A program made the position numbers and the translations under genes. The notes beneath the pieces were generated by a model. That model had not been told where the DNA came from, searched no databases, and was given only the letters and a program-made list of their open reading frames with translations. A DNA stretch of 42,478 nt. It comes from Candidatus Saccharimonadota bacterium (GTDB lineage Bacteria; Patescibacteriota; Saccharimonadia; Saccharimonadales; Saccharimonadaceae). Shown piece after piece: positions 3,906 through 41,720 of this stretch. The stretch spans positions 1-42,478 of the forward strand of contig JAFWIY010000007.1 in assembly GCA_017514675.1 (NCBI GenBank), read 5' to 3'. How positions within the stretch are numbered: position 1 is the stretch's first letter; each line of letters starts with the position of its first letter.

Positions 3906-5138
3906 ATGAAGATTGCGTTTTTCTCCGACTGTTACTTAGATTTAACCGGCGGCATTGTTTCTTCAATCAACGCTCAAAAAACCGCCCTAGAAAATCTCGG
4001 CCACGAGGTTTATATTTTCAGTACCGGCTTTCCGCGTAAAAAGCCAGAACTGGAGAAACTGGCCATTAACAATATTTTTCAAGTGCCGAGCTGTAAACTG
4101 TTCTTCCGCGGCCTCACACCGGTGTCCCGCCGCCCTAAAATCATCGAAAAGTGGCTAGAAAAAACTCATCCCGAACTAAAAGATTTTGATATTTTCTACA
4201 TTCATTACGAAGGCGGCTGTTCAATTGCCGGGCTAAAATTAGCAAAAAAATATCAAATTCCCAGTATCCAAGTCATGCATGGGCGCGAAGATATGGGCGA
4301 GACTCATATTATCCCGTTTGGTTTTCGCACGGTCGTAGCAACGGCGCTAAATTGGCTGCATTCTTGGTATTTGCCACACCCAACTAAAGTTAGACGCGAT
4401 GATTACCTTGCAAACTCCCTAGCCAAAGTCAAAATGTGGGAGCTAATGGTAAACCATGCCAACTGCGCAGACCTAGTTTTAACACCATCTGAACACTTCC
4501 GCCAAAAACTCATCCATTACGGGGTAAAAAAGACAATCAAAGTTTTTCCCAACGGCTATCCTGATAATGAATTCCCCAAAAACCCACCCTTAAAAGATTT
4601 AAAAAAAGATGAAGAACTTTGCATTATTTGGCATTCGAGAGTTTCGGCCGAAAAACGCATGATGCCGTTTCTGCACGCGCTTAATATGGTACGAGGGAAA
4701 TTTAGGTTAGATGTTTATGGTGGCGGCGGTGACCATTTTCGCGCTCGTCGTTACGCAAAGCGCCATCATTTGAATGTCTATTTTCACGGTAATGCAGATT
4801 TTACCAAGATTCAAAAAGCCATTTCAAAAGCTCATCTAGATGTCTTGGTCTCATATAATTTTGACACTTTTGGTATGACCCTGATTGAAGCTGAAGCTGC
4901 CGGGGTGCCAGTATTCTTTTGTGATCCAGACATGAAGGAGGTAGTACCACAGGGTAGCTATATTCTCTCTTCTAATGAGACACCTGCTGCAATGGCTGAG
5001 TCGCTTAACTATTTAATTACTCACCCGGAGAATATTTGCAAGATGAGCAAAGTGATGTTGGGACACCGAGAGGAAGTTAAAATTTCAAATCGTATCCAAA
5101 TCTTACTGGGTATTTTTAATGATATAATGAAAAAATGA
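3906..5138 (+). CDS. glycosyltransferase family 4 (GT-B), probable glycolipid synthase
   Basis: 410 aa with the two-domain GT-B layout. The N-terminal Rossmann part starts MKIAFFSDCYLDLTGGIVSSI, with the glycine loop that faces the acceptor. The C-terminal sugar-nucleotide domain has IIWHSRVSAEKRMMPFLHAL and FDTFGMTLIEAEAAGVPVFF. In the usual E-x7-E motif the first Glu is replaced by Asp (D-T-F-G-M-T-L-I-E). Sequence style and the neighbouring phosphatidyltransferase suggest a diacylglycerol or phosphatidylinositol glycosyltransferase, but the acceptor cannot be read from sequence. The stop overlaps the next gene (ATGA), so the two are probably co-transcribed. Confidence 0.85.
   Translation: MKIAFFSDCYLDLTGGIVSSINAQKTALENLGHEVYIFSTGFPRKKPELEKLAINNIFQVPSCKLFFRGLTPVSRRPKIIEKWLEKTHPELKDFDIFYIHYEGGCSIAGLKLAKKYQIPSIQVMHGREDMGETHIIPFGFRTVVATALNWLHSWYLPHPTKVRRDDYLANSLAKVKMWELMVNHANCADLVLTPSEHFRQKLIHYGVKKTIKVFPNGYPDNEFPKNPPLKDLKKDEELCIIWHSRVSAEKRMMPFLHALNMVRGKFRLDVYGGGGDHFRARRYAKRHHLNVYFHGNADFTKIQKAISKAHLDVLVSYNFDTFGMTLIEAEAAGVPVFFCDPDMKEVVPQGSYILSSNETPAAMAESLNYLITHPENICKMSKVMLGHREEVKISNRIQILLGIFNDIMKK
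5123..5128 (+). promoter_or_regulatory. internal leaderless promoter before the phosphatidyltransferase
   Basis: TATAAT lies in the last codons of the glycosyltransferase gene, exactly 6 bp before the ATG at 5135, the same geometry as the other leaderless starts. It may give separate expression in addition to read-through. Confidence 0.5.
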
Positions 5139-19303: not shown

Positions 19304-19331
19304 ATTATAACACACTCCCAGCAAAAATCAA
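19304..19331 (-). promoter_or_regulatory. rpsJ promoter
   Basis: TTGATT, 16-bp spacer, TATAAT (minus strand). Leader of about 75 nt with AAAGG before the ATG. Its -35 lies only 3 bp from the -35 of the divergent surface-protein promoter. Confidence 0.7.
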
Positions 19332-19334
19332 GTA

Positions 19335-19362
19335 TTGACAGCCCCACGGGGGGGGGTATAAT
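19335..19362 (+). promoter_or_regulatory. promoter with G9 spacer tract, surface protein gene 19419
   Basis: TTGACA (19335-19340), 16-bp spacer, TATAAT (19357-19362). The last nine spacer bases are G9 (19348-19356). One more G would give the optimal 17-bp spacing. Confidence 0.85.
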
Positions 19363-19402
19363 CATAAGCAGAGTGTAGGATAAACAAAAAATATCAATCT
19401 AA

Positions 19403-19414
19403 AAAGGTCATACA
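19403..19414 (+). promoter_or_regulatory. shared surface-gene leader motif
   Basis: AAAGGTCATACA ending 4 nt before the ATG. The 10-mer AGGTCATACA recurs before the other two surface-protein genes (31871-31880, 40557-40566). AAAGG may be the ribosome-binding site. Confidence 0.7.
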
Positions 19415-19418
19415 CAAA

Positions 19419-21506
19419 ATGAAACTACAGAAACGTAGCGCTATATTTAATCTTGGCGCAATTATCAAAATCGGAGCATTGTCTACTATAGCCTTTTTGA
19501 TGCTTAGTAACTTTTGGTCGCTAGGCGCACAGGCTATGGATCCAGTTAATGGTACTAGCGGTGATTGTACTTGGGAGATAGACACTGAAGGTAATATGGT
19601 AATAAAACCTACATCTGGTGAAGAATGTACTCTAGCTAACTCTACCTCAGCGGCTTCTATGAGCTATCACCCATATCGTAGCAGTATCACCACAATTAAA
19701 TTTGAAGACAAAGTATATGCCAATACTGGAGCAGCTGCTTTGTTTCGTGATATGACAAACTTAACAGATATTGACCTTACAAACTTTAATACTAGTAATG
19801 CTACTAATATGGCACACATGTTCCGCAACGCTAGTAGTTTGACGGAGATTAATGTATCCAGTTTTGATACCAGCAGCGTAACTGATATGCAATATATGTT
19901 CAACGGTACTAGCCTGACAAGTTTGGACCTATCTAATTTTAACACTAGCCAGGTGACTAATATGAGCATGATGTTTGGCGGATTAGATAAATACATTGTC
20001 TATTTAAATATAGGTAACTTCAATACCGCAAATGTTGTTAATATGTTTTTCGTGCCTGCGCGACTTCAGGAAATAGTGTTGGGCCCAGAGACCGATCTAA
20101 AGGACAGTGTTATCGGCAGAGGCTTATGGCGAAATAAGGATGACGGCGTCTTGTATAGGGGCATAGAAATAAAACAAGGCCCAGGCGATTTTGTAAAAGT
20201 CAGTAATGTTGCCGATGACATGAGTATTCCATACACGGTGGACTATCGGATCAATTCAATTCCAAAAATAGACGAATTTTCCACTACTAACCCAGAAATC
20301 TTTACTATGAGCCGTGAAGATACGCAAATTACAGCTACACTTCCGCTAGAGAAAGTATCTGAATACTCCGTTCCCGGTTCGGTAGAATTATTATTTAAAG
20401 GTGTCGTAAGTGACAAATATGGTAACTACTATGACTTAAAAATGACGATAGAAAACATTAAGTTTTATGATTTAGATCGGATAAATGGCGACTACAGCAC
20501 GATTTGTGCATTGATTGTTAACTTGCAGCCGTATAACGAATTGAGAGTAATCCGTCTTAACGGATTCCTCTGTTCCACTTACGACTGCTCGGCCGCCGTA
20601 AATAGACGAGGACGAACGTCTAGGAGTGAAGATGTTACCTTTAGTATTCTAAAAGATGGTTTACCAGTAGAAGGTAGTTACCTATTCTCGGCCTTTGATC
20701 TAGATAACCCATCTTCCCGCGACCAAGGCTCACCTTATGATACTTCTGACAGAGGGTACGGTAATTATAGTGAAGGCATTAACTTGAACGAAGGCTTTGA
20801 TCTAGATACTGTAGTTTTAAGTCAAAATACTATGCTGCAAAAAATTGGCGAGAATAGATATACGGGTACAGGCAGCGATAATGAAACGGAGAGGTCAGAG
20901 CTTGTTGTCAAGGCCGATGCCAAAGAGGCGAAATTTACCTGGACTACTCCTGGCGATGCGAACACTACGCTGTTTGCTAACTACCAGCCAAACATCGTAG
21001 AAATCGCCAAAAAAGACCAATACGGTGATCTTGTAGCAGGTGCTACACTTACAGCTTCTCAAGACGGTGAGATTAGGCAAACTTGGACTAGTTCGCTTAA
21101 GCCAGAACGCCTATGGCTTAATCCCGGCGTATATTATCTCAAAGAAGTTTCTGCTCCAGAAGGCTATGAAAAGACTGATGAAGAGATAGAGTTTATCGTA
21201 GATGGCGACAATCTTCTATTAAACGATGAAATTGTATCCAATATCACTCTAACCAACCAGAAAAAGCCTACCCCACCAAAGCCAGATGAGCCAGACACTC
21301 CATATACTCCAGAAACCCCAGACACCCCGGGTGAAGAAACCGAACCAGAAGACTCCGACCCTGCGGTTCCAGATACCGGCCACAATACCAGTACTTACAA
21401 CCAAAGTAACCTTACTATTATCGGCTCAATTATGGGCGGCATTCTACTTTCCCTTTCTGGCCTAGTTATCTACAAAGCCAAATCAACCGCCCGCAAGTTT
21501 GACTAG
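19419..21506 (+). CDS. LPXTG-like anchored surface protein with BspA (DUF285) and Cna-B domains
   Basis: 695 aa. Signal peptide about residues 1-40 ending GAQA. Repeats of about 25 aa typical of BspA-like/DUF285 proteins (FRNASSLTEINVSSFDTSSVTDM; LDLSNFNTSQVTNMSMMFGG) at about 105-210. A central region without recognised domain has four cysteines (about 365-390). A Cna-B/SpaA prealbumin-like domain (GATLTASQDGEIRQ; YYLKEVSAPEGYEKTDEEI) lies at about 525-610, then a Pro/Glu/Thr-rich stalk, the sortase-type signal VPDTG (about 651), a membrane helix and a basic tail. Expected to be attached to the cell wall and exposed for adhesion, possibly to the host bacterium. Transcription is probably switchable through the G9 tract. 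Confidence 0.88.
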   Translation: MKLQKRSAIFNLGAIIKIGALSTIAFLMLSNFWSLGAQAMDPVNGTSGDCTWEIDTEGNMVIKPTSGEECTLANSTSAASMSYHPYRSSITTIKFEDKVYANTGAAALFRDMTNLTDIDLTNFNTSNATNMAHMFRNASSLTEINVSSFDTSSVTDMQYMFNGTSLTSLDLSNFNTSQVTNMSMMFGGLDKYIVYLNIGNFNTANVVNMFFVPARLQEIVLGPETDLKDSVIGRGLWRNKDDGVLYRGIEIKQGPGDFVKVSNVADDMSIPYTVDYRINSIPKIDEFSTTNPEIFTMSREDTQITATLPLEKVSEYSVPGSVELLFKGVVSDKYGNYYDLKMTIENIKFYDLDRINGDYSTICALIVNLQPYNELRVIRLNGFLCSTYDCSAAVNRRGRTSRSEDVTFSILKDGLPVEGSYLFSAFDLDNPSSRDQGSPYDTSDRGYGNYSEGINLNEGFDLDTVVLSQNTMLQKIGENRYTGTGSDNETERSELVVKADAKEAKFTWTTPGDANTTLFANYQPNIVEIAKKDQYGDLVAGATLTASQDGEIRQTWTSSLKPERLWLNPGVYYLKEVSAPEGYEKTDEEIEFIVDGDNLLLNDEIVSNITLTNQKKPTPPKPDEPDTPYTPETPDTPGEETEPEDSDPAVPDTGHNTSTYNQSNLTIIGSIMGGILLSLSGLVIYKAKSTARKFD

Positions 21507-31781: not shown

Positions 31782-31810
31782 TTGACTTTTTAAAACACAA
31801 GCATTATAAT
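31782..31810 (+). promoter_or_regulatory. promoter of surface protein gene 31885
   Basis: TTGACT, 17-bp spacer, TATAAT. No homopolymer in the spacer, unlike the other two surface genes. The leader of about 70 nt ends in the shared AAAGGTCATACA motif (31869-31880). Confidence 0.8.
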
Positions 31811-31884: not shown

Positions 31885-33933
31885 ATGTTCTCACACAAAC
31901 ATTATTTACGTTTTGCAAGATTTGTCTGTACTATAACTCTTCTTTTTGCAATTTCTTCTATCGCTAATATATTTAATACAGCTAATACCTCAGCTGCTAC
32001 TTATGAGGCTTCTATCTCTACTTCTGGTAGTGTTACTCTTGATGTATCTCCAGCTGGTAACGGTGCTAGTGTGACCACCGATACTCTAAACATTATCTCC
32101 ACCTGCCCAGAAGGCTATGAAGTATTGATCCAAGGCCCAGCCGATACTACACTCTACAAAGATGGTAACAAATCTAATACAGCCGCCACCAAGAAGATTA
32201 ACGCTTCTGCTGGCACTAAAGACACTCCTAGAGGCATTATGGGTATAGACACTACTTCTGGTACTTCTAACATCAATACATGGGGCTATAGTATTGGTGA
32301 CCCAGCTACTGGAAACACCTTCACTCCCGCTACCATTCACTCTACTTCCTTTATTGGTCTAAATAACAGTCTTACTTCACTTTATACCAAAAACTCTGGT
32401 ACTACAGCTACTGGCGACAATCTCCCAGTCTACTACGGCGTAAGTGTAGATACTAGCATAGAAACTGGCTCTTATACCATGGCAGAAACTACTGCCGGAG
32501 CAAACGACAACAAGATCGTCTATTCTCTAGTCACTAATCCTAATTGTATGACCTACCAAGTCGCCTTTAATCCTACTTCTACGGCTGGTGGTACTACCGT
32601 TTCTGGTACTGGCACCATGGCCAACCAACGTATCACAGAGGGTATTGCTACACCACTTACTACCAACGCTTTCACTGCTCCAGAGGGTTATACTTTTGTT
32701 GGCTGGAATACCAAACAAGATGGTACTGGTACTTCCTATACTAATACTCAGAGCGTAACTAATCTTACTACAGCTGGTAACACTATTACACTTTATGCAC
32801 AATGGAAGCCAGATTGTCCTGCTAATACGATTTGCTATAATGACAACGGCGCTAACTCACCCACCACTATGAGTAATCAGACTGTAGATCCAGGTGCTAC
32901 TGAAGTTACCCTTTGGGCTTCTAACTTTAAGAGGCCTGATTATGGCTTTGCAGGCTGGAGCACTATCAGTGATCTCTCCTGGGTGGGATCGTGTTCTGGT
33001 GATGCTCTCCACGGCATAGACTGCCTACTCCCACAAGGTGGCTTGTATGGTCCAAATGAGACAGTGGTATTGGCGAACGATGAGTTTGGCGATATGAGTG
33101 GCGGAGTTACCTTATACGCAATTTGGGTGCCGGTAGTAAAAGGTAGTAATAATAACGAACTAACCTTTCAAACTGCTAATCTACTAACTACCACCCTAAA
33201 TAATGGCTACACCTTATCAGCAATGCCCACCAACTATATTACTGCCCTAAGAGACGAGCGCGATAATCAGGTTTATGCCATAGCTAAACTTGCCGATGGT
33301 AAATATTGGATGATAGAAAACTTGAGGCTTGGTGGGGGCATTACACTAAATGCTGCCAATACTCATAATCCGGTTATTACGACCCTTACCGAAAGCACGA
33401 ACTGGTGTATTGATGTCGATGCGAACTGTATCAACCGGCCTTATGTGAGCAACTCTACTTTTAGTACCGATGAGGGAGCCTACTTGCACGGAGCTTATTA
33501 TAATTGGTATTCTGCTACCGCGGGCAATGGTACTTATGAAACAGAAAATTTATATGATGACGTAGTAGCTGGAGACATTTGTCCGTATGCCTGGCACCTC
33601 CCGACGGCTGAAGGCTCCGCTATTAATGAATTTGGAGCACTCGATATAGTCCTAGGCGGAACAGGAGATTATCAGACTACGGCAGAGGCCTCTAACCGGT
33701 GGCGTAGATTCCCGGTCAACTTTGTGTATTCTGGACATTGGTACTATGACGACGCTCACGATATTAATTTCTTCGGGGAGTATTGGTCTTCATCGCCGGC
33801 CAATAATGAAGTAGCCTCATCATTCTTCATTGGCAGTTACCATGGTGATTATGATGATGAGCAGGGTACAATCGTGATGGAAGCCGCCCCCAAAGAATTG
33901 GGATTATCGGTTCGATGCATTCTGGGCGTTTAG
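31885..33933 (+). CDS. secreted surface protein with InlB-like repeats and FISUMP domain
   Basis: 682 aa. Signal peptide about 1-38 (ends NTSAA). A Thr/Ser-rich region is followed by Listeria-Bacteroides (InlB B) repeats at about 215-310 and 320-420: GYTFVGWNTKQDGTGTSYTN ... ITLYAQW, and YGFAGWSTISD ... VTLYAIW. The C-terminal 230 aa form a Fibrobacter succinogenes major paralogous (FISUMP) domain: AIAKLADGKYWMIENLRLGG, CPYAWHLPTAEG, GEYWSSSPANN, GLSVRCILGV. No sorting signal is present, so attachment must be by another route. The first 420 residues use many ACT/GCT/TCT codons, the C-terminal part a more even mix, suggesting a mosaic gene. Confidence 0.87.
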   Translation: MFSHKHYLRFARFVCTITLLFAISSIANIFNTANTSAATYEASISTSGSVTLDVSPAGNGASVTTDTLNIISTCPEGYEVLIQGPADTTLYKDGNKSNTAATKKINASAGTKDTPRGIMGIDTTSGTSNINTWGYSIGDPATGNTFTPATIHSTSFIGLNNSLTSLYTKNSGTTATGDNLPVYYGVSVDTSIETGSYTMAETTAGANDNKIVYSLVTNPNCMTYQVAFNPTSTAGGTTVSGTGTMANQRITEGIATPLTTNAFTAPEGYTFVGWNTKQDGTGTSYTNTQSVTNLTTAGNTITLYAQWKPDCPANTICYNDNGANSPTTMSNQTVDPGATEVTLWASNFKRPDYGFAGWSTISDLSWVGSCSGDALHGIDCLLPQGGLYGPNETVVLANDEFGDMSGGVTLYAIWVPVVKGSNNNELTFQTANLLTTTLNNGYTLSAMPTNYITALRDERDNQVYAIAKLADGKYWMIENLRLGGGITLNAANTHNPVITTLTESTNWCIDVDANCINRPYVSNSTFSTDEGAYLHGAYYNWYSATAGNGTYETENLYDDVVAGDICPYAWHLPTAEGSAINEFGALDIVLGGTGDYQTTAEASNRWRRFPVNFVYSGHWYYDDAHDINFFGEYWSSSPANNEVASSFFIGSYHGDYDDEQGTIVMEAAPKELGLSVRCILGV

Positions 33934-33951: not shown

Positions 33952-34122
33952 GACTCCGTAGACCACAATCAGGGTAGTCGCGGTTACTACTGGTCTAGTT
34001 CGGTGAACAATAGCAGCAGCTACTTTCTGTACTTCCTCAGTGGCAGCGTCAACCCGGGTGACAACCTCAGCTACTACAACAAGTACGCCGGCTTTAGCGT
34101 TCGGTGTTTAGTGGGTAGTTAG
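33952..34122 (+). pseudogene. orphan FISUMP C-terminus directly behind the surface gene
   Basis: 57 codons including the stop, in the same frame as the upstream gene but after its stop and a second stop (TGA at 33946). It encodes the last part of a FISUMP domain: GYYWSSSVNNSSSYFLYFLS and then KYAGFSVRCLVGS, matching YWSSSPANN...GLSVRCILGV of the intact gene in pattern but not in the segment between. No start codon or ribosome site. It looks like a leftover or silent alternative 3' end. Confidence 0.75.
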
Positions 34123-34292
34123 GTTAGTTTTCTTCAGAGCCCTGTTGCCACCTTTGGGATCGCTTAAGTGAATTCAAGGGGAAAAATTTCACGGATGCAG
34201 TTGACAATCCCGCCTATCCCGCCACAAAAAGAAACTCCGGAGTAGAAGACTAGCAACTTTCGGGAGTTTCTATTGAGCATGATTATACTACT
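34123..34292. other. intergenic stretch with one terminator-like hairpin
   Basis: No ORF is supported. It contains an inverted repeat at 34230-34271 (described separately). Nothing else was recognised. Confidence 0.5.
34230..34271 (-). terminator. terminator of the CdiA-like nuclease gene
   Basis: Minus-strand stem AGAAACTCC / GGAGTTTCT with a 24-base loop, followed by TTTT. The large loop makes it a weaker call. Confidence 0.5.
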
Positions 34293-40486: not shown

Positions 40487-40514
40487 TTGACGGTCGGGGG
40501 GGGGGTGCTATTAT
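40487..40514 (+). promoter_or_regulatory. promoter with G10 spacer tract, surface protein gene 40569
   Basis: TTGACG (40487-40492), 16-bp spacer, TGCTATTAT (-10 at 40509-40514). Ten consecutive G (40496-40505) fill most of the spacer. The layout repeats that of the promoter at 19335-19362. Confidence 0.82.
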
Positions 40515-40568: not shown

Positions 40569-41720
40569 ATGAAACATACATTTATCAAGAAACTTTTTTC
40601 TATTACCATGATAGCTACTCTCGCCTGCCTTTCTATTTTTTCCCCCCACCTCCACCCAGCCAATGCCGAAGATGCCACAACGCATAACCTCACTATCACA
40701 AACACCACAGTCGATAACAAAAACCTAGAAGCTGCATACAAAATAAAGGCGTGGAAACATAGTATTAATGAAGAGGTAATTCCGTTAGGTGGTTTTCAAT
40801 ATTGTGCCGTTAATGAAGAAGCAGGACCATTGTTTTATGTCATCACAAATTTTAGTTATAATAATTATAGTTATAGCGCAAATGAATGGGTAACAAATTT
40901 TCCTTATTATTCTAGCTATATATATGATGCCCCAAAGTATAACGAGATATCTTCTGCTTTAAAAAACACTACATACTCGCTATACTCGCTAAATGAAGAG
41001 GAACTATTATATGAAACAAATATGCAAATAATATATGATAACAAAAGTTATACAGTATATGCAAATTTTGACTACTTTGATGATTCGTTTGATTCCTATG
41101 GTGATGCCGAGGATTTTGCTAACCAAGAGTATGCATTATATATAATAGATAGAGATGAATCATTCAACAATTATGATTTATCATCCTCATTAGGAGAACC
41201 TGACGAAGAAGGTTATTATACATTTGCATTAGGAAAAAATGATAGTAAAACTATACCTATTCCTGAAGGGTATGAATTTGAATTAAAACAGATACTTCCT
41301 GATGATTCAGAACTAGTATCAATAAATGGTAGTGAAGAGCCAATACAACTATCTGGTACTATAGATAGTGATATAACATACACATTTCTGAATAGGAATC
41401 TCGCCAACGACGAAGAGCCCGAACCAGAAATCCCTGCTCCTACCGACCCTACCAATCCTACCAATCCCACTGACCCAACTAACCCAGGTCAGGATACTCC
41501 CACTACCCCAGGCACCAAACCTACTCCAGAAATAGACCCTACTCCAAGCCCCGCTAGCCCAGAACCAAAAACCAAAACCGAGCCTACCATCACTGTCCCA
41601 AACACTGGCGAAACTACCGCCACCACTTCCGCCGCAAAAATCGGCATCGTAGCCTTCACTATTCTAGCCACCACCACCCGCGTCATCTACCTCATCCGCC
41701 GCTACAAAAAGCGCGCCTAG
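40569..41720 (+). CDS. LPXTG-like anchored surface protein, variable middle
   Basis: 383 aa. Signal peptide 1-34 (ends PANA). The middle part (about 55-275) is very rich in Asn, Tyr, Ser and Asp, without a recognised domain except a Cna-B-like end (PIPEGYEFELKQILPDDSEL ... ITYTFLNRN). A Pro/Thr stalk with DPTNPTNPTDPTNPG repeats follows, then sortase signal VPNTGE (about 344-349), membrane helix and basic tail RRYKKRA. DNA for the middle is much more A/T-rich than DNA for the signal peptide and the stalk, as if the centre had been exchanged. Probably cell-wall attached; switchable through the G10 tract. Confidence 0.85.
   Translation: MKHTFIKKLFSITMIATLACLSIFSPHLHPANAEDATTHNLTITNTTVDNKNLEAAYKIKAWKHSINEEVIPLGGFQYCAVNEEAGPLFYVITNFSYNNYSYSANEWVTNFPYYSSYIYDAPKYNEISSALKNTTYSLYSLNEEELLYETNMQIIYDNKSYTVYANFDYFDDSFDSYGDAEDFANQEYALYIIDRDESFNNYDLSSSLGEPDEEGYYTFALGKNDSKTIPIPEGYEFELKQILPDDSELVSINGSEEPIQLSGTIDSDITYTFLNRNLANDEEPEPEIPAPTDPTNPTNPTDPTNPGQDTPTTPGTKPTPEIDPTPSPASPEPKTKTEPTITVPNTGETTATTSAAKIGIVAFTILATTTRVIYLIRRYKKRA

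Follow-up and report, generated by a model that had tools for sequence, protein, structure and literature searches.

In Neisseria meningitidis, the length of a poly-G tract in the promoter spacer of porA sets transcription (van der Ende et al., 1995, as summarized in PMC7864442), and in Treponema pallidum the gene tp0126, which encodes an OmpW homologue, has a poly-G tract between its −35 and −10 elements and is transcribed best when the two are 17 bp apart (PMC7864442). Homopolymer length also controls surface-protein expression from opc of N. meningitidis, where a poly-C tract overlaps the −35 element (PMC7864442). Within the candidate phyla radiation, a hypervariable gene of a Gracilibacterium contains coding 9-mer repeats that alter the protein, and slipped-strand mispairing has been discussed for it (PMC6851277). 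A search of the open-access literature (subscription papers and preprints being outside its scope) found no report of promoter homopolymer phase variation in Saccharibacteria or Patescibacteria. The mechanism considered here is already known in other bacteria, and within the literature searched its apparent novelty lies in its occurrence in Saccharibacteria and Patescibacteria.

The promoter that we analyzed lies on the forward strand of a 42,478-nucleotide stretch of DNA, very probably from Saccharibacteria (hereafter, the window). Its −35 hexamer, TTGACA (19335–19340), and its −10 hexamer, TATAAT (19357–19362), are separated by a 16-bp spacer (19341–19356) that consists of GCCCCAC followed by nine Gs (19348–19356), confirming the original prediction of two perfect hexamers around a 16-bp spacer with a terminal G9 tract (19335–19362). 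As in promoters of the porA/tp0126 type, a homopolymer of at least eight nucleotides thus lies wholly inside the −35/−10 spacer of a gene for a predicted surface protein, and judged by this anatomy the promoter is of the same kind as those two. The proposed analogy with porA was right in this respect, although porA is a single locus and belongs to a host-associated, Gram-negative species unrelated to this one, whereas here several loci are seen, from sequence alone, in a reduced epibiont lineage in which MutS was not detected. T. pallidum likewise belongs to a different phylum, and the effect of spacing was measured for tp0126, whereas we infer it here. The accompanying comparison with opc was looser: opc too has a homopolymer in the promoter of a surface-protein gene, but its tract is a poly-C run overlapping the −35 element rather than poly-G in the spacer, and hence its mechanism differs. 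The Gracilibacterium gene shares repeat-based gene variation in the candidate phyla radiation but has coding repeats and no promoter switch.

The −10 hexamer is followed by a 5′ leader (19363–19418; CATAAGCAGAGT..., ending AAAGGTCATACACAAA), partly common, in alignments of leader copies, to other surface-gene promoters of the genome, and then by the ATG start codon at 19419 of a 695-amino-acid predicted surface protein (19419–21506, forward strand). Domain matches placed a DUF285 region at residues 107–210 and a SpaA/prealbumin-like domain at residues 527–598. The protein also has predicted features of an LPXTG-like anchored protein, namely a signal peptide and a C-terminal VPDTG motif, transmembrane helix and basic tail (...KAKSTARKFD), making the earlier description of an anchored, adhesin-like product a fair prediction. 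In a scan of named genomes with this protein, the matches were confined to DUF285 proteins from Firmicutes, Bacteroidota and other groups, with no near relatives, and a search of the genus found no full-length orthologues. Because the matches in the genus were limited to the DUF285 part, they yielded no orthologous promoter series for this gene.

Pfam matches identified rpsJ and tuf, each on the opposite strand, as the genes flanking the surface gene. The putative rpsJ promoter (19304–19331, reverse strand; TTGATT at 19331–19326, a 16-bp spacer and TATAAT at 19309–19304, as we pair the elements) stands back-to-back with the poly-G promoter, and the two −35 boxes are only 3 bp apart, so two polymerases probably exclude each other and could not bind both promoters simultaneously. 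Transcription of rpsJ might also respond to the state of the divergent poly-G promoter (19304–19340).

The tract is not an isolated feature of this genome. The 632-kb assembly contains nine tracts of at least eight Gs, and for five of them the position is between the −35 and −10 elements of a promoter (rough binomial estimate, ~4e-14): the G9 tract described above (C29:19335, forward strand, 16-bp spacer), a G10 tract also in the window (C29:40487, forward strand, 16 bp), and G9, G8 and G14 tracts on the reverse strands of three other contigs (C19:3006, 15 bp; C10:37442, 15 bp; C28:18984, 20 bp). Tracts of G8–G9 that lie elsewhere than in promoters include those at C9:1213 and C29:23416. All five promoters precede genes for predicted exported, mostly anchored, proteins. 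The leader CATAAGNAGAGT is common to three of them, and related leaders follow the other two. The second promoter in the window (40487–40514) comprises TTGACG, a 16-bp spacer of GTC, ten Gs and TGC, and TATTAT, and stands before a 383-amino-acid predicted surface protein (40569–41720, forward strand) with a predicted signal peptide and a VPNTG motif, transmembrane helix and basic tail, for which no Pfam match was found. Words of eight Gs occurred six times in the window, above all 100 dinucleotide shuffles (mean, 1.0), and the pattern TTGACA-N6..10-G8-TATAAT matched twice in the whole genome and its reversed control not at all. The tract together with its leader had no match in viral contigs.

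The window also supplied an internal control. A sibling promoter without a G run (31782–31810, forward strand; TTGACT, an ordinary 17-bp spacer and TATAAT, then leader AGAGTAAGAGTTATAC, which is related to the poly-G leaders) drives a 682-amino-acid surface protein with Fib_succ_major and Flg_new domains (31885–33933, forward strand). A second G-less sibling with the same type of leader, at C1:6779, has a 16-bp spacer.

Similar promoters recur among relatives. The pattern TTGAC-N-G7-N-TATAAT was found in 14 of 174 genomes of the genus and its reversed version in none, while the C7 counterpart gave only two matches, poly-C being about ten times rarer than poly-G at the same place. Across the class, 29 of 393 genomes had a G8 run no more than 6 bp from TATAAT, and 28 of these 29 belong to the window's family; the reversed pattern gave two matches. 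Presence was patchy among species, with sites clustering in individual genomes (about six at most), as contingency loci would predict. Of the 59 poly-G sites gathered across genomes, a few are probably due to chance (those with a weak −35 element). Contigs of relatives often end tens to a few hundred base pairs from a poly-G promoter (G162:C28, C8, C9 and C30; G116:C7 and C35; G028:C7 and C39), which would be predicted if the genes form repeated families or if the population is mixed in tract length. The genome bin that contains the window lacks a 16S gene; in five genomes of the same order, the TM7-specific 16S primer sequences TM7314F and TM7-910R (taken from PMC6073563) matched exactly in three and five genomes, respectively, which makes it very probable that the order, and with it the window, belongs to Saccharibacteria.

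The products encoded behind the family's poly-G promoters included LPXTG-like anchored, DUF285/BspA-type LRR, Fib_succ_major, RCC1/TIG, Flg_new, papain-like and pilin-like proteins. N-terminal hydrophobic segments were predicted for 33 of 54 proteins downstream of poly-G promoters versus 11 of 31 downstream of ordinary promoters, a modest difference (p = 0.026), and about one third of the poly-G promoters preceded genes not evidently exported (GNAT-like, ABC ATPase, unknown cytosolic). Across the family, the link with surface or export is thus an enrichment and not a rule.

Spacer length also distinguished the poly-G promoters. Among the matches listed from 14 family genomes, 110 of 144 ordinary promoters (TTGACA-N-TATAAT without a G6 run) had a 17-bp spacer, mostly with an extended TGn element, compared with 3 of the 38 poly-G promoters that matched TTGACA at five or more of six positions (Fisher p ~6e-15, which is only nominal because some sites of the same genome are paralogues, so that related promoters were in part counted repeatedly). 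The contrast is large despite this caveat; the remaining poly-G spacers scattered from 10 to 23 bp, mostly 15, 16 and 19 bp. Ordinary promoters of the family were unusually strict in form, as TTGACA-N17-TATAAT with GTGTGn before the −10 element, among the matches listed from the 14 genomes. The original prediction had called the 16-bp spacer one base below the optimum. With 17 bp the usual spacing among the matches listed, that part held, and one extra G in the run at 19348 would give the ordinary 17-bp optimum. The implied weakness of 16 bp does not necessarily follow: relatives in which the G run is interrupted, and so less slippery, also include several 16-bp spacers, among them orthologous promoters in two genomes (G055 and G060), and 16 bp therefore need not be a weak state.

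Homopolymer runs are prone to slippage that mismatch repair normally counters. A search for MutS (PF00488, MutS_V) found it in none of the 174 genomes of the genus but in 11 of 14 control genomes, so slippage in G runs of this lineage should escape the usual repair. Tract length did differ between closely related promoter copies inside single genomes of relatives. One genome (G028) contained near-identical promoters with G15 and G10 (L111/L112) that were identical at 57 of 60 bp upstream; two others contained copies with G14 and G10, near-identical in G073 (L134/L133) and alike downstream and around the −35 element in G204 (L103/L102); and a fourth (G116, L109/L106) contained near-identical copies with G9 and G10. 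These within-genome copies are paralogues or haplotypes rather than repeated reads of a single locus.

The composition of the ordinary promoters bears on why the runs consist of G. Among the matches listed, ordinary family promoters had G before TATAAT at −2 in 89%, at −4 in 63% and at −6 in 49% of cases. Because a G run keeps G at these positions whatever its length, slippage would shift only the spacing while the contact base is kept, which would not hold for a C run; this preference would explain why spacers contain poly-G rather than poly-C. The same preference, together with the excess of poly-G over poly-C, is what one would expect if the G run next to the −10 element were instead a fixed tuning element whose length is not a switch. 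The interrupted 16-bp runs in G055 and G060 point the same way, indicating that G-rich spacers can be maintained even where slippage does not occur, and the predominance of G8–G10 tracts with 15–16-bp spacers could reflect a preferred static length, although it could also reflect assembly bias against long runs, since assembled tract lengths may be biased towards short ones. A conserved static element would not, however, be predicted to include pure runs of up to G16 and spacers of 12 to 23 bp, nor to differ in length between near-identical copies or to be present in some species and not in others, with several loci in a single genome, and we consider this explanation unlikely.

It is more improbable still that the run is a regulator site or a structural element, such as an unusual poly-G duplex, for which length would be secondary. 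A set of surface genes with a common downstream leader does hint at shared control, but the sequences on either side of the run vary from locus to locus, and the run keeps no fixed register to the −35 element; moreover, the G-less siblings retain the leader and an ordinary spacer, so the tract is not required for membership of the set. Several contigs of relatives (as in G162) end 11–30 bp after a tract, as might happen if two-colour sequencing had produced spurious poly-G calls or if repeats had collapsed during assembly. Yet in the window and at most loci the run is internal, with promoter elements on both sides and in the orientation of the gene, in independent genomes, and the reversed and poly-C controls were near zero. 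We therefore give very little credence to an artefact as the source of the tracts, while noting that the exact number of Gs in an assembled run may be wrong by about one.

Multilocus phase variation of surface proteins through promoter spacers, similar to that of porA and tp0126, is in our judgment the probable explanation, with both the switching and its effect on transcription being predictions. The suggestion that the promoter is phase-variable is supported by five surface genes in one genome, recurrence in the family, the loss of spacer strictness, the length differences between copies and the apparent lack of MutS. By this account of phase variation, this Saccharibacteria genome would have five or more simple-sequence contingency loci, the G9 tract among them, at which replication slippage gains or loses Gs. 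With the tract wholly within the spacer, each event would alter nothing but the separation and helical phase of the −35 and −10 elements, both of which are otherwise good sigma-70-type hexamers, and RNA polymerase would start strongly, weakly or not at all depending on the spacing, such that single cells would show different combinations of surface proteins. We would expect slippage to proceed at a high rate in living populations and spacer length to set transcription at these promoters, and the benefit may lie in varying how the bacteria attach to host cells or in escaping phages or the defences of the host.

The same genome contains a diversity-generating retroelement (DGR; L216, C10:4500–12500), with a reverse transcriptase that ends near 4215 on the forward strand, a template repeat at 4192–4405 and a variable repeat at 4788–5001 that forms the 3′ end of a surface gene of 700-odd codons on the reverse strand. 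The repeats are 214 bp long and differ at 28 positions, 26 of which are at template A, and the target gene is a paralogue of the window gene at 31885–33933 (78% over 1 kb). Just past the stop codon of that window gene lies a second copy resembling the variable repeat (33965–34147; 76–78% to the DGR repeats), which has the appearance of a C-terminal variable region that has been duplicated or become detached. Directly before the reverse transcriptase, a coding stretch (L006:1176–1965, C10 near 7012) contains a run of 11 Cs, at which length the upstream 119-amino-acid and downstream 147-amino-acid frames are out of register, making the run a possible second, translational slippage switch. We tentatively raise the possibility, itself rather doubtful, that some Saccharibacteria diversify their surfaces genome-wide in two layers, in which poly-G switches select which surface proteins are made, the DGR rewrites the ends of others, the poly-C run possibly switches the DGR, and lack of MutS makes all tracts hypermutable. 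Such a two-layer programme, if true, would be the first contingency system of its kind to be described in Patescibacteria, and the choice of host cells for binding could depend on it.

If the poly-G tracts themselves act as we propose, promoter-spacer phase variation would extend to the candidate phyla radiation, and slippage-driven surface switches in a lineage that lacks MutS would account for differences in host binding among cells and among strains.
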